Below, one piece after another: positions 26,500-61,300 of a stretch of DNA of 64,000 nucleotides. A model generated the notes under the pieces. That model saw nothing but the letters and a program-made list of their open reading frames with translations, made no database searches and was not told where the DNA came from. The number at the start of each line of letters is the position of its first letter. Within the stretch, counting starts at the first letter, position 1. The DNA is taken from the NCBI RefSeq assembly GCF_020085105.1, contig NC_058063.1, positions 12,863,651-12,927,650 of the forward strand, given 5' to 3'. The translations under genes and the position numbers were made by a program. This DNA comes from Siniperca chuatsi (taxonomy: Eukaryota; Chordata; Actinopteri; Centrarchiformes; Sinipercidae).

Positions 26500-29400
26500 A
26501 TGATGGAAGAGCAAAGTTTGGACAATCTTCCCTTGACCCAGAACCTGCCGCTGAGCCAGGACTCCTTTATACAGCTGTGGGACAGTGTGTAAGTTACGTT
26601 TTGATAGTAGATACCATTTTTGAAATGTCAGTTTACTTCAGGAAAAACAAGTTAACTAGTTTGTGTATGTTTGTTTTTGCAGTGTAACTCCCTCCATCTC
26701 CACCATTCCAACGGTGACTTATGTGTCTAATGAAACATGGAGGCCGGACAGTAATATGGATATGCTGGTAAGTATGCCTACCCTTGCCCAAAAACAACGA
26801 ATTGTTGCAGAAGAAAGTTTTCTGTTAGATATTTGTCAATATTCATATGATGGTAGCTTCAATCTGAACTTAATCATTTATAGAGGCTGATTCTTGTTCA
26901 TTTCTCTCCTTTTAAAGCTCATTAATGATCAAGCGCTGACCGAGGGGTTTGATGAGAATCTGTTTGAGCTGCCCCCAGAGATGTCCACTAAAGATGTTGT
27001 TACTCCCCCGTCCTCCACCGTCCCGGTTACAACTGACTATCCGGGGGAATATGGCTTCCAGCTTCGCTTTCAGAAGTCTGGCACGGCCAAGTCCGTCACC
27101 TCCACTGTAAGTAATCCCAGGCCTAAGCCCTCAAAATTTTGAGATTCTACATATTTATTGTTTTCTCATATTCTTAAACGGGTAAATGTGTTGCAGATAA
27201 TTTCAAAAGATAAATGTGCCAGATAACTTTTCTTATTTCTGTTCTGATCAATATGAGACAAAGTACTACCAACCTCAGCAACAGAAGTCTGTACTTACCG
27301 CACATAGTGTATAATTTTAATAGAATTACACAATTTAAATGCTAGACCAAATGTTAAAATTCAACGGGACTTGCAACAGATTATCTTTCAACCAAACATG
27401 ACAAGGAGCAGAAGTTTTCTGTTTGAGCGCCAGAGAACAAAAGGGATTTCAACAGTTGCTCATTTTCGAGGCAGCATTCACTGTTCAACTGAGTGTCTTC
27501 GATCTACGGTGTAATTTTTCCTGTTGCGTATTGTTTTAAGTCACTGAATTCAACTTAACACAGAATTTCCCAAATTAGAGGTTTGGAAATTGAAATGGTT
27601 TACTATAGTAAAGTCACTCACTGGTTTCTGAAGTTTTTATCACCCACAAAATTAAAGTTTTTGAACAAACACGATCTTACCTTGGCAATGCGTTAAAAAT
27701 CCATTATTTCTCTCATGGTGGCATTCATGTGGAATCTTATTCATTGTGTCGATTCGCTAAATTTTAAGGTCTGGAGTCAGTCACTCCGTTTGAAGAGCCA
27801 ATGGCATTAATGTTTCCACGGTGACTCACCCAGCAGCGTGCTGCAGTTGGCCAGTTTAGTTGAGGTTAGGGTGGTCTTCCCCGAATCTCCCGCCCCCTGC
27901 CACTTGTGCGCTGGTCTGTGGGAGAGGTGCAGTCCGGGTGTAAAGCACAGCTCTGACATGACGGGACATGTTCCTGCGCTGTCTTCCTCCAGCACAGAAA
28001 GGGTTAAAAACGGATGAAAGCAAGGTAAAGATTGTCATTTAATTTGATAAATCTGACCTTACTTATTTGGCGAACTTAACATGTAGTTTGTTTTTGGTCC
28101 TTTTAGAGAAGCGAGTAGTTGAACTTTTACTATTTTATGTGCCTTTTTTTAAGAATAGTGTTGGAATTTTAGTCTTTTATAATAGTGTGCTTGTTTTTGT
28201 TTTCTGAGACAGATCTCAGACCAGTGTTTGGCATTTGCTGCTCCATAAGTGCGCAGATAATAAAGTGCATGGTTTTCTCCCTGTGCTTTCTCTCAGTATT
28301 CGGAGCTTCTCAACAAGCTATATTGCCAGCTGGCAAAGACCAGCCCGGTTGAAGTGCTTGTGAGCAAGGAGCCTCCTGCGTGTGCCATCCTCAGGGCCAC
28401 AGCGGTTTATAAGAAGACTGAGCACGTAGCCGATGTGGTCCGCAGATGTCCCCATCACCAGAATGAGGACGGTGAGGAAAATGTTCCAGTGAGAAATTGT
28501 CTTGTATGTACGGTGGAAGACTGTTTGTCTTTGCTAGAAGAATCTGATTGTGAACATAATAGAGCTGAGGTGATTTTTAAGTTTTTCTCATCGGTTTTCA
28601 ATTCAGCCGCGGAGCATCGCAGCCATCTGATCAGAGTGGAGGGAAGCCAGAGAGCGCAGTATTTTGAAGATCTGCACACAAAGAGGCAAAGTGTAACTGT
28701 CCCGTACGAGCCTCCACAGGTACAACTGCCCCACTTGATCTGTCTGAGGGGGAACATGTCTACCCTTTCTACAGCAGTTATTTTTACCCATTCACATATC
28801 CTAATGTGTGACCTTCAAGCATTTTCTATGTGAGTATATAAACAAACAATGGTGTCTGTCACTTTGATATCACATTTTTAGCCTGAAAATTCAATGTACA
28901 TAAAGTGCAGTAATTGTGGAAACCATCCAGGAATGTGTCTCCCAAAATTGAAAAGCTGCATTTTGGACACCCAGAAGAGTCAATGAGGCGTTAAAAAAAA
29001 AAAAAAAAAAAAAAAAACATTTGTAGTGGTACATGTACGAATTAACACGACTGTGATCCTTGGCACATTTCACTGAAGTGGCTCTTGTGATTACAAGAAA
29101 ACATAAGTACCTTTTCCCCCTAATTGCATACACTTCAACAAGCAGTGAATAAAAATTGCTATGCTTTTCCTGTTTTAGTTGGGCTCAGAGATGACAACCA
29201 TCCTGCTGAGCTTTATGTGCAACAGTTCCTGCATGGGGGGCATGAACCGCAGACCCATCCTCACCATCCTGACCCTTGAGACTCCAGAGTAAGTTTTGCT
29301 TCTCTTTTTACAGATGTGATGGGGCGGTGGGAGTGTTGATAGAGGACAAGTGGTGACATGGTGTAACTGGATATCTTGCTTAACATTTTTATGTGTATTT

Positions 29401-32600: not shown

Positions 32601-33031
32601 TTGTGTTCTGTTATGACATGCATTTGTTGTCTTCTGTCTTTGCATCTTTCCTTCCTGACAGTTATTTCATGCTAGTACTTTGCATGTTTGGAAGATTAAT
32701 GCAAAACCGGGAACGTCTAAATGTATTCATCTGGGCTGAGTAGAATGGAGCCTTGTGTTGCCAGTCAAATGTGGTGTTTATTACCTGTTGATCTTCCATG
32801 TTGGTTGGTACAGGTGTATTGCATGGACATCTTTCCCGTACAGAGATCGTGTCGTTCTTCAGGTCATAGGATACATCTGTAGCCTGGGTGGGTAGTTAGT
32901 TCAACTCACTTTAGGTTGACTGTATTAGTTTGGTTCCTACTTATTTTTTTTAATTTATATTCTACAGTAGCGGTCCTCTGGGTACATTTTCAAGAAGCTT
33001 CCCTGAATCTAGGATCCACAGGAATCTCAAC

Positions 33032-33532
33032 ATGGCAAAGTCTCTCAAGGATAAAGTCTATGTTTTGATTTGTTGGGGTGAGTCTTATTTTCTCCACGGT
33101 ATTCATCTGTAACCTAGGCAGCATTTTAAAAGACAAAGCAATCGAGTTTAAGCTGCAGCTGATGATTGTTATCATTATCAACTTATCTGCCAATTATTTT
33201 TTGCATTAATTGTTTAGCTAATATCAGAGTAGCAATACATTTCTATCCAAACACTATTCAATTCACAGTGATCAAACAGACATTTTTCAGAGTTAAAAGG
33301 CCCTTACTAAAAAATTTAAAGGTAAGTAAATTTGGCAAGTCATAGAGGTGGAACATCATAAATAATAACTACTTATACATTTTCACTACATTGAGCCCTT
33401 TGCTGCAAAATCCTCTTCAGCCTAGACTGAGAAATGTCCATAAGGGTGTGGCCTGATGATCTTGGGCTCCATTATAATGAAGGCTGCTTTCAGTCAAACT
33501 TTACTTTGTTTTAAATGTTATCCCTTAATTAA

Positions 33533-33608
<76 letters not shown>

Positions 33609-36600
33609 TAAACAACTGTTCTCTGAAGTTACTACTGTTGAGATTATAGAGGTACAGTATATTCTGTAACAGCATACATCTGTTCAGATGTTGATTAGAT
33701 AAAAGTAGAGAAAATAAGTAATATGGCTTGCCAGTTTTAGATTCTTAAACTAAAAACTTTGGTATTCTGTGTAGAGAATTGGTTGATCGAAAATGAATCT
33801 GCAATTATTTTATAATCTATAAATCGTTAGTCAATTTTTAAAGCAAAAATACAAAACACTCTCCCGCCTCTCAGATGTGAGGATTAGTTGTTTTTCATTT
33901 CTATATCATAATGAATTTTGATTTTGGTCAGTTGGTTGGACAAAAGAAGCAATTTAAAGATGTCTCCTGGGGCGCTCAGAAATTGTAATGACATTTTCCC
34001 CACAAAAATATGTTGTAGACCTACACAATCAAGACAATAATTGGCAGATTAATGAAAGTAATAGCTTGTCCAGCCCTAGTTAACTAGTAATGCACTGATC
34101 TGACTTCACTTCCGATATCAATTCTGGGAAGGGAATCTTCTGATACACTACTGATTCAATACCAGTGCTTAATAAGGTTAGTATCGGCCCAGATCCCTAC
34201 TTGAAACCTGTGTCGACAAACATCTGATCTCTTTTCTCCCGGCTGTATGTTTCTCCTCAGCTCTGATGTTGATGTACAGCGCTGCAGAGCGAGAGTACTT
34301 CTGGCAGTCGAGCAGACTCTCCTGGACGGGGGCCAGGAACCACTGCCAGGTACATGAACCTCAGTTTTATGTGGAAAAAAAGAAGCTGAACCGTGAGGAC
34401 GGACTGTGTGAAAATACTGAAGAGGCTGTGGTTTTTAATTACTTAGGTGTGTGTTTGAAGCAGCATTTAATTATACAGCTGTCAAATTAAAACTAGCATT
34501 GCGTTCAGAGCTAGTAATTAGCAAATTTGCTTCCATGTTGTGTTCACAGTGCAGAGTTTGAATTTAATTATCAACGGCTCGTCATTTATTTACAATTATG
34601 TTAAAATCCCAAGTGCTGATAGTCATTGTAAGTTGTAACAAGTACAGTAGACCCTCATCAACACTGACTGACAGACTTAATTGTATTTTTGCTTAACAAC
34701 TCCCTGTAACCATGGCCTCATAATCAACACTGACAAAACACAAACATTACGAGCATCTAGAATTTAATTCTAATAACGGTTTCTATTTTGGATTCATTTG
34801 GATTTTACATTTCATCCCAGCCTATACATTTAGTAAATGTACCAACATTGTGAAAGAAAACCATCTTAATACCACAGCTCGGCACAAAGCAGATCTACTG
34901 TAAAAGACTGACTGTAGCCTTTCACGTCCTGTCAGGTCTGTTTCAAAGAACTGGTGACACTGACTCCTGAAAACATCCAAACCATCACCTGCAAACTCAC
35001 CTCTGGGACTCTCTACTGGGTCGGCCTCCGCAAGAACTTCTCCTCGACCAGCAACTCCACCAGTATGTCCTGGTCCCGCTGGGCCAACGGGGATCCCCTC
35101 GCCTTCCAGAACTGGTACCCTGGCTGGCCTGTGTTCAAATCCTCCTTCCCGAAAAGAGACTGCTGCAGCTGCTCCTGCACCTGCCCAACCAAGACAACCT
35201 CAACAATGACAAGCACCACCGGCTTCACAGAATTTATGACCCCAAACGTGACAGGCTTTAGTGGACTCACTGAAGACCCAACTGGAGCCACGGAGAACGT
35301 AAACAGCTTCACCGACGCCACAGACCGAAACGTGCCCGTGACCACGCTGCTGCCAGTAGAAGCAGCATGTGTGCGATCGCCTATGCTGCTGCCGGATGTC
35401 CCCGACACTGATAAGAACTACATTGAAGACTCTTGTGTGGCCATGCTCAGCTTTGGGGCTTGGGTTGAAAAGAACTGCTCGGAGCTTCTGCCTTTTATAT
35501 GCTATGAAGGTAAGACTAATTTAAACTTTATTTCTATTAATTGCCCCCAGTTTAATGTATGTTGTAAACTTTTAGTTACAAAAATAATTGATTTATTTTC
35601 ATTATTTGGTCTAGATATAAACATCTTCTAGTGTGTTAGTCTCTGTAATGTAAGAATAAGATTTATATTAATATACATTTTTTTTAAAGTGATAGGACAT
35701 ATGTCATCCTCCATATGTCAAGAGATACAAAATCAAAACAGATGATGGCACCCGCACATGAATCTGAACCTCCATTCCAACCCACACCTACCCCAAAAAA
35801 CCCCCCAGAAGCAACAATATAAAACACAAGGCAGCCACAGAGTCTGAGACAAATGAAGCCTTAAGAAAGATCGTATGCCATTTAAAAGATACAAGCACGG
35901 ACTAAAATGAACCTCAACGTCTAACATTGCTTCATTGAAAGAATTAATAGCTTTTCAAAAACTACAACATTTTTCATCCTGCTAAAAAATGCATTAATGT
36001 TTCTTCTTTGCTTTTACATCTGGGACAATATGGGGAATTATCATGTGAGATCTTATGCATCCTTACTGGATTTGTCCAAACAAATGTAAAAATGAGAGGA
36101 TAACATATGCAGTGATTTATAGTCTAATATACACACTTTTTTCAGTATTTTACACCCCATTTTTGCACCTTTTTCTGTGTATTTTTGCCTCCCTGGATAT
36201 CTCAGGTTCTTTGCCAATCAACAGTCTTTATCTCACTTCCAACCACAGATCGTTTCATTGGCCAAGTCAACGTGGCCAACGTGACTAACGAGAGCGCCGT
36301 CCTAACATGGCTACCCGGGCCTGGTAACATCAGCCATTACCGTTTAGAGGTCAAAGACGGCAAAAACCTGTCGGAAAATTTGACTGATTTGACCTATGAC
36401 CTTGTCGACCTGACAGCAGGCACCAAATACTTTGTCCAGGTGTTCCCCGTTAAGTGTGACAGAAACCTCAACCCGCAGGAGGTGGCCTTCTACACCAGTG
36501 AGTTGGCCTCATTCTGAAACATCGACTACATTAAGATAATACTGTTATTTAGATTTATTTACACCTTTTAGCTTCAACGAACAGATCTGCTGTATTCCAT

Positions 36601-39600
36601 GCAACCACAGATGAGAAGCGCAGGGGTCATAGTCACAGTGCTTTAATAATATCCCTGGAACAAAATGAACAACTGTTTCTTTCCTTTGTTGCTAACATGC
36701 ACATTGCTAGTGAAGAAATTAAGCATTTTAAAGAAAAAAGTTTATTTAAAAATTGTATTAAAATCGCATATGTTTTTGTAGAATAACATACAACTGAGTA
36801 AAACTCTTAAAGGTTTTTTTTTCGAAGGATTGGTCAGACGCAGGTTAAATCCTTGTGTCTGATTGGCTATTGCTGCTCGTGTGTGATTAATAATGTCTAA
36901 TAATCACTTGAAAGCTTCTCTTAAAGGTTACTCTCACACTTTGATTAAAAGTCAAGAGGGTCATATTAAAGGCTCGTCTTATTCAGTTTTTACAGATTTT
37001 CAACAGACCATAGTCAACAAGCATAGTCTCTAAATGAGTTAAATAATAAGTTAAGCAACAGCTTTTCCAGTTTTCATAATCCAATTGTCATGCAGATTAT
37101 TTTTAAATTACCACCCTTGTTTTTACGATTTAAAATATACACTGATGCACAGATTAGTAATAATGCAAACACTTTGCTTGTAACCCTGATTATATCTTGT
37201 CTTTTTTTCAGCACCTAACAAAGTCGAAAACCTCAAAGTCACCAAGGTGACAGAAACCTCTGTTTCCTTGAGCTGGAACAAAGCAGCTGGGAACGTGGAT
37301 TTCTATCTCATTCAGGTCAAGGATGAGCAGATTCAGAATAATACAGAAAGTAAGACAGAGGGCATAGACGTCAACAATTTGATACCTGGAAGCCTTTACA
37401 CATTCACCGTAAAGTCAGGCGTTCAGGACAAGTCCAGATGGAGTGAAGAATCCAACATCACGAAATACACCAGTGAGTTTATATCACACAAACCTTTACA
37501 CAAATAAAAGGATTATAATGCCTGATGGGACTGATGTAGCTAAGTAAGCTGCATGTTACACCTTAGAGAATTTTAACAGGAAGTACACTGTGTGGTTGAG
37601 ACCAGTGAATGCACATCAAAAGCTTGCTCAGGTTTAAATGAGGTTTAGAGGTTATTTCTTGCTCACATAATATGAAATTCAAATCAGCGGAGGCAAATTA
37701 GAGCCACATCTGACACCTGTGAGATTGTATTGGGGTCATCTGTAAACAGAGTGATGTGGCGCCTGTTTCATATTTATCTGTCTGTTCTCTCTTTCAGAGC
37801 CTGCGAAAGTGTCCAACCTGATGGTGTCTAACAATACCAACGACTCGCTGCAGCTTAGCTGGATGCAACCCGTTGGAAAGGTCACGGGTTTCAGGGTGGT
37901 GGTTAGGAAAGCAAGGAACGCAAGTAATGAGTATGTATTTGTAGATAGATTTATATTGATAATAATTAATTTACTTATTTAAATTCAGGTATATTTATAG
38001 GGATGTTTATTTTTAGCCGTACTACCGGCCAGGTTCTAGGGATGGCAATGTCGGCCTGTCGGTCGGTCCACCACTTTGGTCAAGAATGAAATATCTCCAG
38101 AGGATGAATCCTTTGGTGAGCCCCTGACTTTTCCTGTAGCGCCATGAGGCTAACATTTTTAGTGAAATATCTCGACAACTATCAGATGGATTGCCATGTC
38201 ATTTGGTACAGACGTTCATGTCCTGCAGGGTGAATTGTAATAACTTTGGTGATCCCTTAACTTTTCATCTAGTGCCATCATCAGGTCAAAATTTCTCCAA
38301 TACTTTGGTTTATGACTAAATACCTGCAAAACTACTGACATTCCCATCAGCCTTATCAAATGTTAGCATGCTAACAAGCTAAACTAAGATTGATGAACAT
38401 GGTAAGCTTTATACATGTTAAACATCAGCATGTTAGCATTTAGCTCAAATCATCGCTGTTCCGAAGTGCAGCCTCACAGAGCAGCTAGCATGGCTGAAGA
38501 CTCTTAGTCTTGTTCTTCTATGTTGCTACATACAAAATAATTTGAAAATTTGAAAGATTTCACTGTTACACAGGAATAGAAATACATCCAAATACAACAT
38601 AGTTTTATTCTAAAACATCACCAAAGCAAACAAACCTTTTAGAATAGTTGAGTTAATGTAAAGCTCTGGAAAGCTGAGCGCAAATGGAGAAAAAGTAATC
38701 TTCAGATTCACTACAACATCTTCGAAGAGAGGCTTCGTATTTACAATTCTGAAATAAATAAGGATAGACAAAATTTAATTTGATCTAACTTTTAAATCAA
38801 ATTTTATTCTGTCTTAATTGATTTTATTCTGTTCTTTTATTGCTTGTTGTTTTTTAATGTTAGTGTAAAGCACTTTGAATTGCCTCTGTGTTTGATATGT
38901 GTCATATAAATAAAGCTGCTTTACCTTGAAATGCAACTAATTTGCTCATTTGATCCAAATTAATCTCACGTACAGACACTCTTTTCACTCACAGGAAGTG
39001 AAGTGTCCTGTATAAACCTATGAAAGAACTTTAAACTATCTCCTGAGCAACAATGAATGAGCGCTGCATTCAGGTTCAGTGGGACTCACAAATGCTAGAT
39101 ATTTTTTGTTACTTGTCCGTTTGTTGTTTTTTGATTAACCACCACAGACTGTCCAGTTGGTAAATGTAATTGTGAATTTGACGTACAGTCCCCTTTCTGC
39201 CCTAATGTCTGACTTCAGCAGGCCTCACAATTTGGGTCCTATTTTTGTAGTTTGGACCATTATTTCTATTGGTTATGATGACATTGCACTTACTGTTGCT
39301 GAGATTTGGGAACACTGCAACACTAAAAAAAAATCCTTCAGAGCAAGAAACACAAACACTCAGACAGGCTGTAAACAACCATTTAACTATTATCTAAACC
39401 TCTTTATTTGGAGGTAAAACTGAAAGTGAGCACATGTGAAATGTTGGTAGCAAGCCCTCATTGCACAGAGAAATGCCTACAGTAGGTTAAAGTTGAACCA
39501 GGGAGTCGTTATGTAAACTGTGATGGATAATTTTACCTTTTACCTTTTGTTTTCTTTTTCAAATAAGTCTGTCTAACCTGGGGTTTGTTTAAAACCTGTA

Positions 39601-42190
39601 TCGTTATCTGACTGCTCGTGTTTCCTACCCTGTCTGACTTTTGAATTATCTGAATTTTAGCAATGTGCTGCATAGGGATAGAAATGCTGTCCCAAACTAC
39701 GCAAAATAAGATCCAAGTTGTGTTTTCTTTCAATTTCTGACAGCGTGTCCATTTTGGAGATGCACAGTTTCCTCTGCCCACAGCAGTTTGAATCAAGTAA
39801 CTGTTTCTCTTCCCAGCAGCATATTCTTGAAGGTGAATGAAACAAAAGTGACAGTAACAGGGCTGCCGATGGGCACCGAGATAACACTCAGTGTGACAGC
39901 ACTGACCAATTGCACTGAGGAGGGAGACAACGTGACCGTCGTCAGCTACACCGGTAACTCTGGGCTAATAGTTTGGCAGTTGACTGCTAGTTGTTGGTCG
40001 GTAGAGAAATCCATGATTCACAGAAACAGAACAAAAACTCTGTTCTTCTGTGTTGAATGTCACTAATCTGACTTTATACCTCCTACATAGCTCCTGGACC
40101 AATTTCAAACCTGAATTTGTTCACAACACATGACTCCCTCAATGCCACCTGGATGTCTCCTGAGAGTGATTATTCGTTTTTCACTGTCAAGCTCCAGCTA
40201 GATGGCACAGATGTAAAAACAATATCCAACGTAACAGAACCTGAGATGCGCTTTGACAGTCTAAAGAGTGCAGCCAATTACACAGTGATCGTCTACAAGG
40301 TTAGCGGACATCTCAAGGGCCCGCCAGTGGAAAGCTCAAACTTCACCTGTGAGTCACTTTGGCCCCTGTTGTATTTTCCCCATTTGTGTGTTACAATTAT
40401 AATATTTAAGATTTGGTTGATTTGGTGACACATTTGATTTAATACTACAGCAAATGCTTCTTGAGCAGCTACTTTGTCAGAATACAACAGGAGAGCAGCT
40501 GGTGTATCTGTTTACAGTGCAGCCAAACAAACCCATGCTGTTTTAACAATGAAGTCAGTCAGTAATCTGCCTTTTTCCATCATGCCATGATCAAGCACAG
40601 CAGGACACAGTGAGCTGACAAAAAAATTACTGTTGTCTTGTTTTGTATATTGAATTTTTGAGGAACAATGTCAGCACTGTGACAAATATATTGCGTTTCT
40701 TGTGACTGCTTCACAATGAAAGCCACCTTGTGTTTAGCCAGTTTTAATTTGAAGCAGTAGGAAATGTTAGCATTAGCAGTAACTTAATACAGCTCTGATA
40801 CTGCGTTACGAAAGTGAACAGTGAGGCTGATATCAGTGAGATAAAATGAAAAAGAATAACGCTGGATTACATGCTGCATAGTTTCCAGTGAATCCCTCGT
40901 GCGTGTGAGGGCAATTTGAACCCTGCAGGGAATGGCGGCCTCCGCCACTAACAATGAAGACTACTATATAATGAGTTTATTTCAGAATGTAAATACATTG
41001 AATGGCTTAGTTGGAATAGTTCCACAAATAGAGTTTGATTTCATGAAAATCTTACTGATTACAATTTATGATGAAAATGCTTTGACTGAAAGATACTCTG
41101 ATGCCTCATTTTCTCTCTCTTCCCTTTTATTTCAGTGCCGTTACCGCCTACTTTAGGCAAAGTCACTTCTTCCGGTAATCAAATCATGATAGAGTGGAAT
41201 CCCCCTGTCAACACGTCAACAGTCAACTACTCTGTCAAAATCAGCTCCAGCTTCTGGGGCCACAACTTGTCTGATACTGTGAACAATACCAACCATACAT
41301 TTTCTGGCTTGAAGTCAGGGACCAAGTACTACTATGAAGTGCGAACATTGGCGGGTGTATGGTCAAGTACCCCACTAGCTGGGAATCAGTGTACAGGTGA
41401 GACTCTCAAACAATAAGCAAAAAAAGATGATAAGAATTGGGTGGTTATTCATTGAAAAGGTTCCATTTTGGCAGCAAAATCTCAAATCTAGGGTTTTGGA
41501 GCTTCCTTTAAAATCAGCACCTGCTTGCAACAATATTGTTACTAGAGCATGACCTGATTCTTGAAACTGACTCTGATATTCAGCCGATTTTTGTTTTTGA
41601 ACAGAAACGCACGACACAAACATTTCTGAGATCCCTTAAACTTGGTTATAAAAGGATGTGACCAAGATATTTGTACTGAGACATTTTACAGTTGAAAATA
41701 AGACTTAAAAATGGTCACACCGTTTCAAAACTACCTCAAACATAGATATATAATATATACAACCCAATACTACTACTAACAGGTCCATTTCGTACTCCGA
41801 CTTTTTACAAAGAGCTGTAAACATTAACTTACACAGACTGACAGGTAGTTCATTCATTGGACAGTTTTCTGTCATCCTGCATTATCAGTGCACCATGCAC
41901 GTACATGACGAAATCAAATTCCAATGACGCTGTGCTGTACTGTACGTTATGTCTTTATTTGTCCTCTCTAGTGGTGACACAGGGCTCACGAAGAAATGAC
42001 TGATTATGAGCATTATTAGTCAAGACCTTAACCGGACCTCATGTAATGAATAATGACAAACAGATAGAAACAGGACAAAAAAAGGGGGTATCTTGTACCG
42101 TAATATTACAAGGGCAGGCGTGTGTTCGCTACACAAGCTCAACACGCCTCTGTTTTAACTCCTTTTCACTTTCTGATGTATCAGGACATA

Positions 42191-42226
<36 letters not shown>

Positions 42227-43719
42227 TGTGTATGCTGTTTATACAGATTTTGTTTTTAACATCACTTCCTTGAGAGATGGATTTAGTAGTCACCTTTTGA
42301 ATTCCTGCTAAAATCTACTGTCATTAAACCAGGGTATTTGCAGGTCTTGAAAAACATCTTAAAAAGCAGCTTCAGTTCCTTCAAAAGGCAGTAACACTAG
42401 TATTTTTGTACGTTTGTGGGTTGGGTTTTTTTTAAGTGGTTGCGGGCTGTCAGGAGATGTTCTACATCTATAAACTACAAGTGACTCTGGTGCAACAGTG
42501 AATTGTGCTGCAGGAGACTGTTCAGTCCTTTTTTGTGGAGTTTCAGTCGGCACCATCAGACCTGCAGCAAACAGCAGCTACTGTAGGAAGCTCATCGACT
42601 CAAGTGTCAATTTTAACAAAAACTTTTTAAAAATTAATTAATTGATTATTTTTGGATTGGTTAATCCATCCATTTTTTTGGGCCACTTATCTGGGTCTAG
42701 GTCAAGTTAATTGATTAATTATATTACTAGGAATTAATATTATATAAATCTGGGAAGCACTGACCAAAATGTGATATAAATGTCAATAAATTAATGTACT
42801 TAATAAATAATTGTAGGCCTTATTGTCGCTACTGGTTCTCTGTCATTCTTTGACTGTGAATACATTATTAAACTGCATTGTATGTGGTATTAATTAAAGG
42901 TTACATTTAATTTGATGGAGAGTGGACTGAAAACCTCCTTTACAGAGTTTGATTGACAGCTTTCACACCAGCCTAAATGAACCAAATCAAACAGATCATG
43001 CATGAAAGCTCCCTAACAAATCAATCAAAATATGTTTATGTTGTGGAAAATGTCCGGCAGTAATGTAAATGATATTTGTAGTCAATGGGCTAAAAATGCC
43101 AAATAAATTAAAGGAAGTTCTTTGGAAGTCCATATACTGTGTACATAAATGGTAACTTAAGTGAGAAAACAAACAGAATTATTTGTTGACATCGTCTGAC
43201 CACAAAGGACATTATTTATTCCCCCACATGCAAATTTTACAGCATGACTGAGAGTGTGCTTCCTTGTTCTAGCGTCCTCTTTACACAATCTCTGTTTGTT
43301 CCCCAGATGCAGTGAAAAGGGACATCAGTCTGTCTATGTTGTGCTCTTCAGCAGAACCTCTCCTCTGTGATCACAACTCCACTAAGGAAAGTGTATTTGT
43401 TCAGGTATGTCAGTCACCACATGGACGAAACGAATACAGGGTTTGGGAGGTAAACCTACTAAGCAAAAGGTGATATTTTTATTCTGCAAAATAGACTCAA
43501 ATAAATAGAACATGTGCAGTAGATAGTTGGAGTATGTGTGGTAAGGAATGGCTCAGTTTTGTGCTTTACAAATAAAGTTGGTTTAAAACTGTATGTCCAT
43601 TAACAGCTTTCTTTATTTTCATGTGTTTGTGTGTTTTGTTGCAGTTGCATGCATATTTCAACAAGCTGTTGGGGGACAATATTTTCTGGGAACTCACGAA
43701 GCAGGACACTGAAAACTAA
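33032..43719 (+). CDS. Secreted C-type-lectin-like / fibronectin type III protein, unfamiliar
   Basis: Coding exons: 33032-33077, 34261-34349, 34936-35509, 36249-36497, 37212-37472, 37798-37930, 39817-39953, 40091-40348, 41136-41396, 43307-43404, 43645-43719; 726 aa, one frame. A hydrophobic signal peptide spans residues 1 to about 24 and crosses the first splice. A C-type-lectin-like domain follows (about 28-236): YFWQSSRLSWTGARNHC, WVGLR, NW, then CVAMLSFGAWVEKNC and FICYE. No EPN or QPD calcium/sugar motif. About 98 residues (111-208) interrupt it: a Cys cluster (CCSCSCTC) followed by Thr/Ser-rich mucin-like sequence. Five fibronectin type III domains span about 237-669; four are single phase-1 exons and the third is split. 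The last 57 residues form an unclassified Cys-containing module. No transmembrane segment or GPI-like tail is seen, so secretion is inferred; many N-glycosylation sequons. Function unknown. Confidence 0.82.
33151..34077. mobile_element. hAT-like element with internal TA microsatellite
   Basis: Inverted ends: CTGCAGCTGATGATTGTTATCATTATC at left and the complement of AATGAAAGTAATAGCTTGTCCAGCCCT at right, each next to a TCTGCCAATTAT segment or its complement. This is the common fish repeat with GGCTGCAACTAACG ends. A TA tract (33536-33607) of about 36 units has expanded inside. It sits in the first intron of the lectin-FN3 gene. No transposase frame. Confidence 0.65.
38020..38520 (+). repeat. 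Dispersed fish repeat (TAGCATGCTAAC family), copy 2
   Basis: Opposite orientation to the copy at 11164-11730. Features: phrases such as GAAATATCTCGACAACTATC, a TGTTAGCATGCTAACA core, and an end reading GCTAGCATGGCT then GACTCTTAGTCTTGTT. It lies in the 1.9-kb intron that splits the third fibronectin domain of the lectin-FN3 gene. Class unknown. Confidence 0.6.
38780..38931 (+). mobile_element. L2-type LINE 3' tail
   Basis: Contains GTAAAGCACTTTGAATTGCC followed by ATATAAATAAAGCTGCTTTA, the typical 3' end of fish L2 (Maui-like) LINEs. Only the 3' end is present, as expected for 5'-truncated copies. It lies in the same intron as the repeat at 38020-38520. Confidence 0.65.
42193..42226 (+). repeat. 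TA dinucleotide microsatellite
   Basis: About 16 TA units in the lectin-FN3 intron between 41396 and 43307. The rest of this intron (41397-43306) has no coding exon. A short segment at about 42664-42710 (ATCCATCCATTTTTTTGGGC then CTTATCTGGGTC) resembles another widespread fish repeat. Confidence 0.85.
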
Positions 43720-44290
43720 GGAACATAAAAGATGTTTTTTTGTTTTTCTTTTAATTGGTGTTGGTGAAGGTATTTTAGAGTGTTTTCTGTCTTGTGTTTT
43801 TTTTCTTTTTTTTTGGGAAATGTGTTAATGTTAAGCCACTGTGTGTGATACTTAGTCAAAACAGGTTATAATTTTTTTTTGTGATTTTAAATCTAGTTAC
43901 AATTCTTAAAATGTGCATTGACTGTCTTTTATATTCAGAATTTTAATTAACAGAAATTTCATTTCCACCAGGAAAAGGGAGAAAAAAAAAGATGAAAGTC
44001 ACGATAAACAAAGATAGTCGTAGATCAAAAAAGTTTACTCAGTAATTCCAAATTATGAGATACAAAAATTATGAGATAATAAATACAAAATTTTGCTTAC
44101 TATGAGCATTTTAGTTTCTATTATGCTTTTTATCTGTTTTTTTCCTGGTGAAAATGTGCTTCCAAATGTGTGTCTGATGTTAATAAAGAAAACAACAATA
44201 TGTTTTGATTATCTGGCAAAGTGGGAGATCATTTCTTCAGTGGAAATTAAAGTTTTGTTCCAGTGTTCAATAAAGTTTTCCAGCTGACTA
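43720..44290 (+). other. 3' untranslated region of the lectin-FN3 gene
   Basis: No coding exon follows the TAA stop at 43717-43719. AATAAA hexamers occur at 44182-44187 and 44269-44274, the second followed closely by a GT-poor stretch. Either could end the transcript, which supports the view that the protein ends without a membrane anchor. Confidence 0.5.
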
Positions 44291-44755: not shown

Positions 44756-46678
44756 GAGATGGGCAGTATTTCTGTTTTTGAGTAGTTTGTAGTTGGTATT
44801 TGACAGGGCTGAAACATTTCAAATGTAATTTGTAACAAGATACTTTAGAGTGGAGTAATTTTGTATTTTCAGAAACCATACAGCTACAGTTCCCAAACTT
44901 GGCAGATGGGTTGGATATCTCACCCACTACTCAGCCAAAAAAAATCATACCGATTAGCCAGATGGTGGCACTATAACAACGAACTCTGCATTTTGGCCTC
45001 CAAGTTTTAAACCTTAAGTCTCAGAAACAAAATATTTTTTTTCTCTGTGGGTCCAGACCAGAGAACTGGATACAGTGTTGGAGGCGGGGCTCCGTTCATT
45101 CCTATGAAAGCTGCTCAGTGGCGCATGAAGCCAAAAATGTTCGACTTCCTGGTATAAAATTACCCGGATCTTCCTATAGTGCATCACATGATGCACCCGG
45201 AAGTTGTAATTCCATGGTTTGGCCGCTATGTCAAATTGACTTCCAAGCCCAGCGCACTTCCTGGGGGCTTGGTCCAGACAAATCTATCCATATAAGCCAC
45301 GGCCATTTTGTCCAAATCTGTTTTTTCGCTATTCCTACAAATTTCGAGCAATTGACATCAACATTTTCAAATAACATATCTGGACCAATCCAGAAAAAAG
45401 TACTTTTTCAGATTTTTGATTTTCAATATGGCTTTGAAATTATACATTTTCTGTGTCTTTAAGTTTCACATAAACGCTCATAAATCAAAATTGGCTTAAG
45501 CTATTGTAACCAAACTTGGTGCACGTGTTTGGATGCTAGGTCCGAGCTTTGCTGAGCAGTCCTGGGATATAGTTTATATCTCATAATTAGTTGTGCATAT
45601 TTGAGTGAAAAAATTTCCACATGTTCTATGGTCATGTTCAATACATTGTATAAAGTTTGATCATGATTGGCAAAACGGAGAGTGGTTTATAAGTGTAAAC
45701 TCACGTTTGCATCTATATTGCAGTCAAAACTTCCACAAATCATTTAAATTTCACCGTAGGTCCTAGAGAGCTGATTTTCTTTTCAGCACATCCACTGATT
45801 GTATGCACAACATTTTCCCTTTTGCAAAGGTTGAGAGTTCAAACTCTACTAAAGGCAGCACTCAGTAGAGATGAAGGTGACAAGTGCAGACGCAGACAGG
45901 TGCTCCCAATCTGCTGATTGATGCTGCAAAACACAGTCCTAACAAGACCGCTCTCCTTCTCTCTGTTTTTAACTGTTAGTCACGTCAAACCTTCAGGTTT
46001 CATTCATAACCAAATTTGGTACATACAGAACATCTCTGGACCTATATCATATCACCTGAACAGTATTTGCTATTGCAACCAAATTTGGTGGACATGTGTA
46101 AATATGATGTCTGACCACGTGACCATAACAAATTTGGTGCCCTTTGGCCAATAGGTGGCGCTGTAGCAGCATCATCAAGTTTAAACAGCCAGAATTCTCC
46201 TGTTTGGCCCCTCAAAATGTGAGATGGCTTCCAGTGTAAGTTACCTCACCTGAGGATACAAAGGTCCTGGGTTCAAATCGCAGGGTGATAAGGTTCTTGC
46301 CTGCTTTTCAAGCTCTCTTCTTTTCTAAAACCATGCATTGTGCTTGGACCCCGTCAATTGCCGCTTATGGCTATATTTTTGCTGTTGTTTTTACAGTTTT
46401 GCTTAGACACAGCAGCATTCTACTTGTTCTTCCTTCCTGTAGGGTTCAAACTCTCAACAGAGCCTTGTGTACATTATAAAAATCTGAATATTCTGCTATT
46501 TTGTACAAATTCAGAATGCCAAATGTTACAAATGTATTTTCCTGTATTTTGAAAACACAAAATACATTTCATCTCGATACATTTTCTGGCACAAGTATTT
46601 TGTATTTTATTTTCATATATTTGAGGGGTATTTTTAATTTTGTAACAAGATACATTTTGATGTATCTTTGCCCATCTC
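44756..46678. mobile_element. Composite element with GAGATGGGCA inverted ends
   Basis: Left end GAGATGGGCAGTATTTCTG (44756) and right end complement of GTATCTTTGCCCATCTC (46678) are inverted copies. Internal TTGTAACAAGATAC blocks flank both sides (about 44833 and 46640). About 1.9 kb, with the centre occupied by other fish-repeat phrases, for example a CCAAACTTGG / GGTGGCACTAT module (about 44895-44980), a GGCGGGGCTCCGTTCATTCC module (45083 on), and GGTGGCGCTGTAGCAGC near 46156. Probably a hAT-like element carrying later insertions. No transposase frame and no clear target duplication were found. Confidence 0.5.
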
Positions 46679-47019
46679 CGAAGATAGATTAGGCCAGGTC
46701 AGCAGATAAACACAAAGAAGTCAAAGCTGTTATGTTGGGTTCAGGTTTGGGCTGCACATTAAAAACCTGCGGGGGTCTGAGATGGTGCCGAATAATTACT
46801 GCATAAACATACTGCATATGTAAGCTGTTGGTACACAGCATGCCCTGCCAACTTCCTCTGTTAAACTTCAAAATGTACTATTTTTGAGCCCATGCTGAAG
46901 AGAACGGCTGTAATATGAGGAAGGGGCGGGGTGGTCGAATTTCTTTGAGCTAAATGTGTGAAAAGTGTAACTATGAGTGAACAAGCATGTGAAACAGTTG
47001 AAGTAAAAGAGCGTCAAAG

Positions 47020-49120
47020 ATGGATTTGAGAAACCAGGAGGAAGATGCTGAGAGGGAAACACCTGCAGGTTAGTTACAAAGATCATCTCCTCTAAACTAT
47101 ACTTTTATATGATTTGATTTTATATAACCAAAGACAGAACTTTAAAAATACACTTTCTCGATCAGCCTTCTTATACTGTTGAACTTGTCACCTGATGCTG
47201 CAGTTACAGGATTAACAATAACAAGCAAAGCTACAGTTTTGTCTGGTTTCAAAGTCCAAGTTTACTTTTCTTTTTCTTAGAAAGTGTCAGAGGTCAAAAG
47301 GTAAAAAAGGCATAATATGAAAAATACTTTTAAATGGTTGTGCGGATTAGTCATTGGTTAATTTTTTTTACCAATGATGTAAAAATGGCAACCATAATCC
47401 TGGTCATAGGACTTCTTTTGTATTTGGTATTATTTGATAAGTATAAATATAAGATAATACATTTAATATATATTTTTATATGATATACTGTACAGTTTTC
47501 ATACACACTTACTGTTGCTTTATAAATCTACAATCCAGCCTAATGCCTTTCTCTATTGACACTATAGGACATCATTTTAGTTTAGTTCTTGTTTCTCAGT
47601 CAGACTATATACAGACTGTGTTTGAATGACATCTCTCTGATCCTACGATTAGTTTTGTTGCACCTTTTTAAGGTGAGACAATTCACACATTTATCATTAT
47701 ATCATCATATTCATGTAGTTTGGTGACCTGACATAATAGGCCCCTTTTTCACAGAAGACATTTTGACATGTCATAGTAGGAAAAATGCAGGTGTAAATAA
47801 TAAAATGATACTTTTCTTGTTGAAATTACAAACCATCTTGGAGTACTTAATGGTGCTGAAGTCAAACTCACATCAAGTTATTTCCACTTCATGTTCATCT
47901 GTAAAAACTAATTTGTCAGTCATGTGGACAGCAGCACCATAGGTGGATCAGACCTCCAAAACTTCAGGAAAGGAGCTGATGGAGCGACTGCAGCAGTGCC
48001 TAAAGGAGTGCCATGATCTGAACCTCATTCTCCATACTGTCACTCAAAGTGATTTACACTTTCTTCTCTGATACAAACATCTGACTTCATGCAAATGTGA
48101 CATCTCAAAAGGTCTGTTAAACGAATGAAATATGGGGGCTGCATTAACTGAAAGTTTCTGGTTATATGTTAAATCTCACAGATAAAGTGGCAATGTTACA
48201 TTTTATCAACCAGCGATTCCAACACTTTCAGTATTTTTATCCTACACTTTCATCAGTGTGTCTTTCCTGCTGCGTGCAGACTCCAGGTGCAGATTGTGTC
48301 CAGATGGCTGGCTGTGGTGGAGGAGTCGCCACTACTTCTTTTCAGTGGGACTGCAGGAAAATCGTCAGTGAAACGAGAGCGCTGAGTTCTGCCAGCAACA
48401 CAACAGCAGCCTGGCTGTAATCAAAGACTCTGCAGAGATGGTTGCAAAGTGGGAGAAGATGTACTTTTGTAAATGAAAACACCATGTGGGAGGCTCTGAA
48501 GCTGTAGTAAACACCACCTTATTAGAGTCCAAGACTAGATCGAGTGGGTTCAAGACGCCAGAGCAAAATGAGCAGGATTACACAGGGATTAAGAACAGTA
48601 TTGTCACAGTGTAAAAATATTGACTCACATTGACTCACTCAGAGATGTAGATTTAAGTTCAAGTTGCTCTTGAACATAACTTTGAAGTCTAGTTTCGAAT
48701 TTGCCTTAAAGGGCTTTACAATCTGTACAAAAAAACCAAAAAGGGCGAACTCTCAGGAAGAGCAGCAGATCCCACTTCCAGGACGGACAGATAATGCAAC
48801 AAATGTCGAGTGTACAGAGTAGACAGAAATAACAATAGCAAAATTGCACTATGGAAAAGTTGAAAAACTGCCACAGATTAAAAGCATACGTTTCATAGTA
48901 AGCAGACAGAAAACATTTCTGTCCCAAAATGGATCTAAAGTCCTCTAAATGTTGCTTCCTCCTCAGGAATTTATCCAAAGTGTGATGAGGAAGTTCCTTA
49001 AGTTTCCCTTCCTGTGGGTGGGACTGACAGATGCCAAGCAGGAGGGTCAGTGGCTGTGGTGGGATGGGACGGACATCCAGCAGTACATGCTTTCCGAATC
49101 GACTGGCACACAGTTATATA
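47020..49120 (+). pseudogene. Decayed C-type lectin (NK-receptor/CD209-like) gene
   Basis: Remnant pieces in order on the + strand. A cytoplasmic-type start exon MDLRNQEEDAERETPAG lies at 47020-47068 with a GTTAGT donor. A short Leu/Gln-rich stalk piece is at about 47975-48060. A first lectin exon is at about 48279-48432 (CRLCPDGWLWW, then FCQQHNSSLAVIKDSAEM). A second lectin exon follows an AG at 48965-48966 (EFIQSVMRKF, WVGLTDAKQEGQWLWWDG). The first lectin exon has an in-frame TGA at 48369-48371 where Trp (TGG) is expected in the Gln-Trp-Asn-Glu-Ser context. The final lectin exon with the terminal cysteines and a clear membrane exon were not found. Host gene remnant, probably not functional. 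Confidence 0.65.
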
Positions 49121-49130
49121 TTATTATATA

Positions 49131-50018: not shown

Positions 50019-53000
50019 TCAGTTTACTGAGATTTTATGTGGTGGGATGATTCTCAGTAGTGTACGACCATCCAGCGGGGCAAACAGAGGGTACAGCTTC
50101 CCTTTGAAGGTTCCGATGAAGGTGTAGATGTGGGACTTTGTTTCTGCGTTGTAGAAGGAGATCTGGCCCTCTTCGTAATCCAAGTAGATCCCCATGCGTC
50201 GAGGCACGAGGCCGATGGGCAGCAGCGTCTCTGGCTTGGTGCAGACGTAGAACTGGTTCGTGCTGCGCCACAGGGTCCAGTAACCCTGCTTTGGGGTCAT
50301 GGGGAACCGGCCATGGCGCTCTGAGTTGGCGGTGGTCAGTCCCACACGCCAGTAGCCATTGTTGGCTATGTCCACCTCCCAGTAGTGGCGGCCGCTGCTG
50401 TAGCCCTCCCAGCCCAGCACGCAGGGCCAGCTGTCGAAGCGCTGGGAGCTGTAAGGCAGGTCAGACTCTGACATGCCCTCCTGGACCCTACGCTGGTCAT
50501 CTGACAGCAGCAGCCAGGGGTGGTTGGTCATGGAGTCGAGAACCACATCAGCTGATAGGAAAAAGAGAGTGTCAGCACAAATGAGCTTTTACGTACTGTG
50601 AATGTGATGTTTGCTCTTTGTCTGTTCTATGTGAGATAAGATGACGAGGAAGTGAAGGCTAATCTTACCTGCTGCGCTGCAAATCCAACTCCAAACTGAA
50701 AATAGAGACACAGACATTATGTTAAAGTTGCAGTGGATAAACAAGGGAAATGTTTATTGTACATAGTCTAAACCAGTGATTCCAGGGATGTGAACAAAAA
50801 ACTGAACTGATTTTAAAAATTCACACCTGAGTTGGGGATGTATCTTGGAATTCCTGCTTCCCAGGTCCTTTGCTTTGCCAGTAGCCATAACTGTGGAATC
50901 ATCATCTGAAAAGGAAAAAAAGAAAGATAAAATGAAAATGTATTTTATAAGAAAAGCAGTTTTATGTGGTGATTCCCTAATTCTGCCTTCCCTTATGACC
51001 ATGGAGTTTGCAAATATAATCATGAGCAGTACATCTTGTAAATACTGTGCAAACCTTCCAGGAAACCTTTTTTCATTAGAGCAAAGAGCAGTTTATTGTT
51101 ACTGCACAAGTTGTACACAAGAAAAGTCATGTGAAGTATGCCTTAACTCCAGGTGAAATAAAGTAAAACCAGGCACCAAACACATAATATTCATATCAAG
51201 AACTTTGCTATGTACACCACACCATCATCTGCAAATGTGGTGATAGTTTATCTGCAGAGTCTTCACTATCAGTTATTATTGTTGCTTATCCGTTTATCAG
51301 GGCAGAGACAGATCAGGGTCATAATAACTGAATCACGCACGCATTCAAAGAGCAGGGTTTACTCACATCACGCCTTATGTAAAGCCGTTTCATAACCTGG
51401 TCATGTCTGCACTGCTTGGCATCAAACAACTTTCTGTTTTGGTTTTTGAATTAAAGCCAATAGTTTTTTTTGGCTTTAACTATGGTTTATTTGTGCGTTA
51501 TCAGAGCAATTAAAATGTTTATCTTTGAATTCAAGTGACCTCCCATGGTTTCTATTCATTTTGGCCTCCGAGGAACCCAATTTGTTACACAATTTTATGG
51601 TTTATCTTGGAAGTTATTTCCTTTTTGTTTATTCAGCTTCAACTGGCCTATTTATAGTAGTATTTTATATTAGTATAATAGTATTTTTTTAAAGAATTGA
51701 TGTGGTAGAAATGTTAACTTGTGACTCAACAGTTCCTCACCGTGCTGTCTTCTTTGAGCAGAGACCAGGTGATGAACTCCAGCAGAGGCAGCAGGTTAAC
51801 CAGCCGTTTCTTCTTCAGGCACAGCAGGCGCAACGCTTTACCCAACTCGTCACTCTGCACACCGCAACCCTGCAAACACAAACCCAATACTAATTTCAGC
51901 TACATCATTTGGCACTGTTAAAACACTCTCTGGCAAAATGCTTGCTGGAACTAAAACCTTTCCACAAGTTTTTTGGACTTGTGCTTTTAGGTTTAGGACT
52001 CCTCACCTCAGTCGCCTTCTGCAGCTCCTTTGCCCACTCCATGATCCTCAGTTGTGCCTCCTTATTGGCATCCTTATCTTCTTTATTTTCATGTTCTTGA
52101 CTCTCAGATGCCCAGGGGGTCGCCTTCAGGAGCTAAAGATGCAAAATCAGTAAGTTAAGATTGATATTTTTGCTATTTCTTATATCAGAATAAGTTTTCT
52201 TTCACAACCGTAGCTGTTACAAAGATTGTACCTTCGATGTGTAATTGATAGTTACAGTATAGTCACTTTAAACACTGCAATACTTGATCACACATCGACT
52301 CGTCCGCATACTGACCTTGTCGACATGGTGGAGTTCGTCAGCCCACTCCAGGATCAGTTTCCTGCTCTCCTCGAGACTGCGCTCAGTACGACTGTCTGAA
52401 CTCTGGACCTCCTTCTTGCTGGTGCCCTCCTCTGGATCACCACTGCCCTGCTTAAACACAACACCACACACTGTCAGACACTGTCATACACTCTTAAAAG
52501 CATGATGGTGTGTTACTCTGACATCCACAGACATGGTATTTCTTTTCATTGTTATGTGGATGACACACAGTTGTACCTCCCTATCAAGCCCAATGACTTT
52601 AGTACGTTGAGTTCTCTGCAGGACAGCCTGTCTGACATCAAAAATTGGATGTCAATATATTTTCAGCTCCACTCAAATAAAACCCGAAATCCGTGTTATT
52701 GGGCCCCAACACATCACTAAACAAATACTTTATCACCTCAGAAATATTGCAAAAATCTGATCTATTTTAAATCTTAGTGATGCAGAAAGTGTACATGCTT
52801 TTACCTCCTCATGCGTGGATTATTGTAACAGTCTGTTCACTTGTCTTAATCAAAAAACTTTGACTGCAGACTGTACAGAACTCAACTGCTAGGCTGTTAA
52901 CCAGGACCAAGAGATACGATCACATCACACCTGTTTTAGCCTCTTTACATTGGCTCCCTCTCCTTATGAACCATCACGTAGTTTGAGATCTTCGGGCAGG

Positions 53001-58317: not shown

Positions 58318-61300
58318 GAATCCAATGCTGCCGCTCAGTTTTGTGAGAAACTTGAACTTCTGGAGTTGAAAAATACCAAAAACAGACCATCCATTCCAGT
58401 ATTATCCTGCTTTGAAAATTAAAATCTCTACCTGAAAATAATTGTTTTTAACATTCTTGTAAAATATATTGTCTTTTTCATTCAGATGTGTCTGTGAGCA
58501 GAGACAGCATCTTATTTCAAGTTATTTAATTAGATACCGAACATCAAGTTTGCTGGTTCGGGGGGTCAAGTAGCATTTCCTCACCTTTCCAGACGAAGAT
58601 CTTTCCGTTGGCGCCGTTGTCCAGAATGAAGCAGTCGTCGCGGACCAGCGCGTCCTTGGCGAACGGGCTCTTCTCCGACACTTTGGTCATCGTCATGGAA
58701 CCCGTCGCGTCGGACACCTGCGGGATAGGTGTACACAGTTTTATGCTGATGTAAATGGTAGTTTGACATATCAGTGCGGTTTTTAAAGCCCTGCAGATGA
58801 AGTTACCTTGTAGAGGGAGGCAGAGTTGGAAATGTCTGCTTTGTTGTCCTCTTCTTGCGTGCTCGCTGCCAGCTCTGGCTTCTGTCCCAGGACCTGCTCA
58901 ACATGACAGGAAGCTCAGAAAACAGAAACACTACCAAAAAAAAAACATAGTTTTTCAGGACTTCCTTAGCATAGTTAAAAGAATAGTTCCACATTATGGG
59001 GAATACGCTTATTCGCTTTCTTGCCCAGAGTTAGATCACTCTCATGTCTGTACGCTAATGATGAAGCTAAAGGCAGCAGACAGTTAGCTTAGCTTAGCAT
59101 TCAAAGTGGAAAACAGGTGAAACAGCTGGCCTGGCTCTGTCCAAAGGTAACAAAATGTGCCTACCAGCACCTCTAAAGCTCACTAATTAACATGCTATAT
59201 CTTGTTTGTTTAATCAATGAGGGTGATTTCAATTTTCTTCTCTAACTCTTAGCAAGAATGCGAATAAGTGCAAATGTCCAATTATTCCTTTAACATGATT
59301 TAATAATTATTTTTCTCTTAGTCCACCTTAATCTTACTAATGTCTTGTGAACAAAACCACTTACTAGATGAAACACAGCCAACTAAAACAGAATAAAAGT
59401 TACACAGTTACATAATAAAAGTGTGCGTCTACCTTGAGCATCTCCTCAGGCTCCTCCCCCTCGCAGGTGTCCACAATCCGGGCTTTGCCGTGTCTGTCCG
59501 TGTCACGGATCAGCGAGGCGATCTCGCGCACTTTCTGCTTCTCGAACATGTTGGCCTGTGACCCGATCCACGACACAATGGTCTGGAGGGCAAAGAAACA
59601 GCACGAGATCGCAATGATGAAACTGTCACTATAATCATAATCCCCTCGAGTAATTTGCAGTTTTAGACGGGCCAGAGAGTCCCAACAAACTTTATTTTGT
59701 ATTGCAGCAGTATTATGAGCAACTCGATTATGAAAGCTGACAGATTTTGAGCATATATGTTTTCCTGACGCTGGATTTACAGTTTGTGACCTCACCTCTC
59801 CGAGGTCGAGGATGAAGCAGTCTCCTTTGTTGAAGCTGCTCCAGGACAGCTCCACCTCCTTGGCACGGATGTTGCGTTTCCCTTTGATCTGGTACAACCT
59901 GTGCACCGTCCCGGAGCCCTGAGGCCTCCTGAAGCCCGACTCCACACCACCCACCTGCGAGAGATATTCACGGGATAATCATTTAAAGACATTGTGTGTG
60001 GGTTGTTTTTTTTTATGTTAGTTGACCTGCTGGGAAGAAACACTGAGATTTCAACTTTAACATCTCAGATTATTTTAACAAGCTCGAACTGAGTGACATG
60101 AATTAACTTTGGCACAGAGGCCATAATATCCAGGGTGCTGTAAAATGGATTTAACTAGCAATACAAATAAGCTATATAAAAAAGAAATATGTCAAAAGGC
60201 AATTTTTGCATTCAGTTTTTTCATTTATGATTGAAAACTTGAGAAAAATCATTCCAAACACTGCACGTTTTTTAATTAACATTGCAAGGGAATTTAGTAT
60301 AAATTTGAATAATTTCAAATAATCCTGCATGTGTGATATCATTGCTGTTGGATGAAAAGCTTGTGTCTCTAAAATGTCCACTTTTATGGAACTAAGAAAT
60401 GCATGCTTGTGTTTAGCTGGTCATGTAACCAAATTACACCATTCTCTCTGGGAACATTTCTAGGAAATGATTAAGAAATTACAAACTCATAAAAGAAACT
60501 GAAATGTAACTGTCCAGCTGAAGTTATAAAATGAGGTTTCTATTGTGAATTTCTCTCATATTTCAATGGCAGTTCGTTTTTTTTCTTAAAGCATCTGAAC
60601 ATCCAGAATCAGGTCTCTTCCCCCCCCCTCCTCCTCACCTTGTAGCTGACCCCTCTGGGGAAGAGGGCCATGAACTCCGGGGACTCGTAGCCCTGAACCT
60701 GCCTGTGCTGAACAGGGTCACCGCCCAGAAAGTGGTCCAGCTGGGTGGCCAACATGGCACACGCCACCTGCTCGTCCCGAGACGACTTCTCACCTACAAC
60801 AGAGAAAGCATTAAATATCACACACACTCCTCCAAGCAGAAACTTTGATTGATGATTTTATACCATTTTTATAAAACATTTGTTTCTTCATGCATATACA
60901 TGTGGGCGACGTTTGGGCTCATAACCTTTTAAATACTTTTTGTTCAGTGTTTCTGATTTATTCTTTTTTTTTGTTCTTCTGCTTCTCTATAAATTTTTTG
61001 TGTTGTGAGTTTGAGGGAGGTCATTTTTGAAAGAATAACAACTAAATGATGGAGACGGTTAAAAGTTCTAGAAGAGCTTTGTAAAAAACTAGTAATTTAA
61101 CCTTAAGATCTTTTGTCAAACTGCTATTTCCGAGGTCAAGAATCGCTCATATCATAACTGAGCTTGCATGTCGACAAAATCATGTCCCAATCATGTCCTA
61201 GTAGGTAGACCTGGAGTTGGGATTGTTTTGTCAAACAAAACATCCGTTAAAAATTCAAGTGAAGGCGAACAGAAACGCAGTAGAAGAGAGAGAACATCGC

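Follow-up and report, generated by a model that had tools for sequence, protein, structure and literature searches.

C-type lectins that bind sugars in the classical, calcium-dependent manner carry an EPN or QPD motif together with a WND motif. The R3-type receptor phosphatases such as PTPRJ, and likewise PTP-GMC1 (presumably PTPRQ), have arrays of fibronectin type III (fn3) domains, followed by a membrane segment and a phosphatase (PTP) domain. Fibronectin and tenascin are also built on fn3 arrays, and neither is known to carry a C-type-lectin-like domain (CTLD). CTLD and fn3 domains are both common, and their combination in one protein was put in print in 2004, when Zelensky and Gready (PMC514892) listed Fugu CFN3 in their Table 1 as 'Protein with CTLD and FN3 domains'. 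The entry stands in the unclassified group, which also holds PTP-GMC1 and which the authors rated lowest in quality, and the main text of that survey mentions CFN3 and PTP-GMC1 once each. The same authors found that the commonest fault of automatically made models was to leave out membrane exons (PMC514892). Besides this survey, no paper on the CTLD-FN3 architecture or on the function of such a protein was found in the open-access literature.

Here we describe a gene of Siniperca chuatsi that follows tp53 and joins a CTLD to five fn3 domains. It is a genuine, intact gene with an unusual but already noted architecture, the sole unusual part being the combination of the two domain types with an altered lectin loop. 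An earlier note on this DNA could not assign the architecture to a described family, a view that the Fugu CFN3 entry of 2004 does not support (PMC514892, Table 1). As in the CFN3 entry, a single teleost chain combines a CTLD with FN3 domains; the likeness is one of description, drawn from a single table line. By that description the protein probably belongs with CFN3, and this placement forms part of the best explanation offered below.

Gene structure downstream of tp53

The window, i.e., the whole stretch of 64,000 nucleotides analysed, corresponds to C22:12863651-12927650 in a 719-Mb genome of 65 contigs. Ten of its open frames were compared with Pfam and five matched, namely a P53 domain (28264-28830, forward strand), two sugar transporter frames (10226-10588 and 10592-11011, reverse strand; we take these to be glut4), a PRY/SPRY domain (50022-50588, reverse) and a gelsolin repeat (59403-59978, reverse). 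The CTLD-fn3 gene lies on the forward strand after the P53 frame, in agreement with the earlier placement beside tp53.

The eleven exons proposed to form one 726-aa frame were reproduced exactly, with 2181 nt including the stop codon, ten introns that are all GT...AG, and agreeing phases. Exon 1 (33032..33077), placed by its frame, donor and start context, provides the start codon and the first part of a presumed signal peptide; the remainder of the latter lies in exon 2 (34261..34349; frame, CTLD alignment) together with the start of the CTLD (WTGARNHCQ). Exon 3 (34936..35509; frame, Pfam, CTLD alignment) completes the CTLD and includes a Cys cluster and a Thr-rich loop insertion. Four fn3 modules are single phase 1-1 exons recognised by frame and Pfam, i.e., no. 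1 in exon 4 (36249..36497), no. 2 in exon 5 (37212..37472), no. 4 in exon 8 (40091..40348) and no. 5 in exon 9 (41136..41396). The suggestion that the array consists of single phase-1 exons is correct for these four and fails for module no. 3, which a phase-2 intron splits into a first half in exon 6 (37798..37930; frame) and a second half in exon 7 (39817..39953; frame). The donor of exon 6 is the weakest of the gene, with 5 of 9 consensus letters. A 57-aa tail starts in exon 10 (43307..43404; frame, PDB and own-genome searches of the tail) and ends with the stop codon in exon 11 (43645..43719; frame, hydropathy). The start codon context is CAACATGG, and an in-frame TAA is found at 32951, 27 codons upstream. 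Candidate poly(A) signals are grouped at 44182..44274 on the same strand (AATAAA at 44182 and 44269, ATTAAA at 44246), less than 0.6 kb 3' of the stop codon, with further AATAAA copies at 44078 and 44422. Runs of TA dinucleotides occur on the forward strand in intron 1 (~33540-33607) and intron 9 (~42195-42225).

Base composition separates exons (GC 0.37-0.60) from introns (0.35), and third-position GC is 0.61 against the same intron value. When 20,000 draws from the gene's own intronic DNA were read in one frame, none was open at the length of exon 3, 0.5-0.7% were open at the lengths of exons 4, 5, 8 and 9, and 6.0% and 5.7% at those of exons 6 and 7, respectively. These draws, the matching phases and the encoded domains together place the 11-exon frame far beyond chance.

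Domain composition of the protein

The proposed CTLD with five fn3 domains was confirmed by Pfam, in which fn3 matched five stretches of the 726-aa protein (E 1.6e-48) and Lectin_C matched the CTLD both whole (E 5.7e-6) and with 62 loop residues omitted (E 3.8e-8), each version passing the Lectin_C cut-off of 22.6 bits. The signature of the CTLD superfamily is present, comprising, besides the Lectin_C match, the WIGL-type motif WVGL and aligned conserved cysteines. The closest PDB sequence matches of the CTLD are those of the mannose receptor, the PLA2 receptor and CD23; unlike these, the present protein sets just one CTLD, which has a long insertion in its loop and lacks the calcium motifs, on an fn3 rod. 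In the PDB, the fn3 array is matched best by fibronectin and tenascin.

Motifs were compared in an alignment with five CTLDs from the same genome. GWP occupies the EPN position and WVE the WND position, so that the domain shows neither EPN/QPD nor WND when aligned with its PDB matches or with the five CTLDs, and is not a classical sugar lectin by this measure. This loss is not unique: EPN and WND are both present in three of the five compared CTLDs, and the other two have changed letters and lack both. As the motifs are replaced, calcium-dependent sugar binding of the common type is not expected, and the lectin head may instead recognise a protein ligand. The long loop contains the Cys cluster CCSCSCTC and a 61-residue stretch with 17 Thr, both absent from the five compared CTLDs. 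An intron hidden in exon 3 that would excise the Thr-rich loop was judged unlikely; four donor/acceptor pairs pass a loose rule, two of them in frame and both of these relying on a poor acceptor at 35415. The protein contains 28 N-X-S/T sequons, and its presumed mature chain 17 Cys.

Proposed secretion and function

The presumed signal peptide was assigned by inspection and hydropathy, and its 19-mer mean of 1.18 barely exceeds two internal peaks of 1.12 (residue 178) and 1.16 (residue 462). It constitutes the weakest part of the model, and its N-terminal place before two types of extracellular domain suggests that it serves in secretion.

On balance we lean towards the reading that this intact fish gene, situated after tp53 and with no close paralogue found, encodes a secreted, lectin-headed fn3 glycoprotein like CFN3, whose ligand and role are proposed from the sequence. 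If approximately 24 residues are cleaved, the secreted chain would have a mass of ~78 kDa before sugars are added, and it would offer many sites for N-glycosylation. The lectin-like head lacks the standard calcium and sugar motifs and is widened by the Cys cluster and the mucin-like loop; its ligand would be a protein or some other molecule. The five fn3 modules would form a rod that holds the head at a distance, and they may themselves bind matrix or cells. Transcription of the gene, secretion of the product, the type of ligand and a role in matrix or immunity are all inferred in this proposal, the most likely and most economical reading being that of a secreted glycoprotein of recognition or matrix. 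A more specific version can be put forward tentatively, in which a fish-specific soluble recognition protein, encoded beside tp53, combines a non-calcium lectin head and a mucin-like ligand loop with a receptor-phosphatase-like fn3 rod, and serves as a decoy or opsonin, either in the circulation or bound to the matrix. The earlier note likewise put forward a teleost-specific adhesion or immune protein as a possibility. Should orthologues follow tp53 in further fish species, CFN3, an orphan since 2004, would be given a definite chromosomal place and a complete exon structure, and its function would become approachable by ordinary knockout in zebrafish or medaka.

Search for a membrane anchor

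Hydropathy revealed no hydrophobic C-terminus in the 726-aa model, which thus has no membrane or GPI tail. The 57-aa tail matched nothing in Pfam (E up to 1) or in the PDB (E up to 10); in its own genome it retrieved only the two exons that encode it and a single further match (E 0.9). The latter (C4:8814079; 36% identity over 39 aa) was regarded as chance, and no fn3 or lectin frame was recognised around it by eye.

A search for downstream exons likewise found no anchor, in agreement with the earlier note. By a simple pyrimidine rule applied to 43.4-50 kb, no acceptor opens in phase after exon 10 to a hydrophobic segment; this rule covers membrane segments that lie within 50 kb and in one exon. 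Five PTP pieces of a phosphatase gene on contig C4 were used as queries and gave no convincing phosphatase exon in the window, in 10 kb to its left or in 9.3 kb to its right; the pieces did find their own C4 locus, as a positive control, and the best other match had E 0.11 over 11 residues. Moreover, a whole-genome search with PF00102 gave none near C22:12.9 Mb among the matches listed from its best 150 of 272 candidates. The downstream transmembrane or phosphatase exon that the earlier note had named as evidence against its reading was found neither up to 50 kb (membrane, by the simple rule) nor in the window with its flanks of about 10 kb (PTP).

It is nevertheless conceivable, if rather unlikely, that the 726-aa frame is an incomplete model of a membrane receptor, or one of several isoforms, to which a further 3' exon or splice site adds the membrane segment. 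Missed membrane exons are a known failure of fish CTLD models (PMC514892), and two open frames near the end of the gene encode hydrophobic 19-mers: that of exon 11, which is open upstream into intron 10 (43576-43716; mean 2.41), and a second one over 43604-43825 (mean 2.14). Both, however, belong to the 3' UTR and the T-rich sequence that closes intron 10, and downstream hydrophobic 19-mer frames occur at background density (1.91 per kb vs 1.65-2.07 per kb in introns, on the opposite strand and in a separate stretch), in addition to the lack of in-phase acceptors by the simple rule. A longer exon 11 may extend into the hydrophobic T-rich end of intron 10.

Possible relation to receptor phosphatases

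A search of the genome with the whole protein yielded 27 matches at E <=0.1 (among the best 62 of 91 candidates), ten of which are the gene's own exons, exon 1 being too short to appear. The other 17 are weak (best E 4.8e-7) and include four in very long C12 frames that we take for titin, seven at C4:18.70-18.71 Mb and three CTLDs on C9 and C6, the remainder being one fn3 match each on C1, at C4:33.2 Mb and on C16. Hence no close paralogue was found among the best 62 of 91 candidates. When 121 Lectin_C matches (from the best 150 of 322 candidates) were compared by eye with 150 fn3 matches (the best 150 of 1160), no pair within 50 kb pointed to a second lectin-with-fn3 gene; this is weak evidence, given that many of the fn3 matches fall in titin-like frames and the window gene itself is in neither list.

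The C4:18.69-18.71 Mb gene contains an fn3 array, a membrane segment and phosphatase exons, and is by these parts a PTPRJ-type receptor phosphatase. R3-type phosphatases, this gene among them, share the fn3 array with the tp53-adjacent gene and are among its nearest fn3 matches, whereas their membrane segment and PTP domain were not found there. Descent from such a phosphatase, by N-terminal gain of a CTLD and loss of the membrane and phosphatase parts to leave a soluble protein that acts as a decoy by binding the same ligands, seems doubtful to us. Apart from the titin-like frames, the near fn3 matches do include exons of the C4:18.69-18.71 Mb gene, and the fn3 match at C4:33.20 Mb has PTP exons 16-20 kb further on the same strand; in addition, Pfam Fn3_Dep-1_3rd is matched at E 0.0057, under its cut-off, and the Fugu table lists PTP-GMC1 among CTLD proteins (PMC514892). 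The fn3 identities, however, are just 27-40%, a titin-like frame scores better than the phosphatase (4.8e-7 vs 8.7e-6), fibronectin beats PTPRJ in PDB (6.3e-13 vs 1.9e-5), and phosphatase genes yielded no match to the 57-aa tail. A receptor-phosphatase origin of the fn3 rod is accordingly no more than possible from these comparisons, and a secreted glycoprotein like CFN3 remains the preferred reading. Within the C4 phosphatase gene, near-identical tandem fn3 exons at C4:18707.1-18709.1 kb (reverse strand) look like a recent exon duplication.

Flanking and other lectin sequences

Between the CTLD-fn3 gene and the SPRY gene, the forward strand at ~47020-49128 holds what may be the remains of another C-type lectin gene. 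Its frame 48949-49128 matches Lectin_C under the cut-off (E 0.0018), a CTLD-like start was seen by eye before a TGA at 48369 in a frame without a Pfam match, and joining the two frames did not raise the score (E 0.0042). That the CTLD-fn3 gene, which adjoins this apparently broken lectin gene, might itself be a decaying copy without function is very improbable, as its eleven exons contain no stops, frameshifts or broken splice borders and its third-position GC stands well above that of its introns. The sequence at ~44900-46700, 3' of the gene, reads by eye like a repeated element.

Elsewhere in the genome, clusters of C-type lectin domains were observed at C22:16.70-17.61, C9:5.36-5.40, C4:5.50-5.55 and C13:10.18-10.25 Mb. 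On the reverse strand of C18 (9.077-9.094 and 9.121 Mb), a phosphatase match comes first and is separated by 27 kb from lectin-domain matches of the same strand, an arrangement that may bear on the PTP-GMC1 entry of Fugu.
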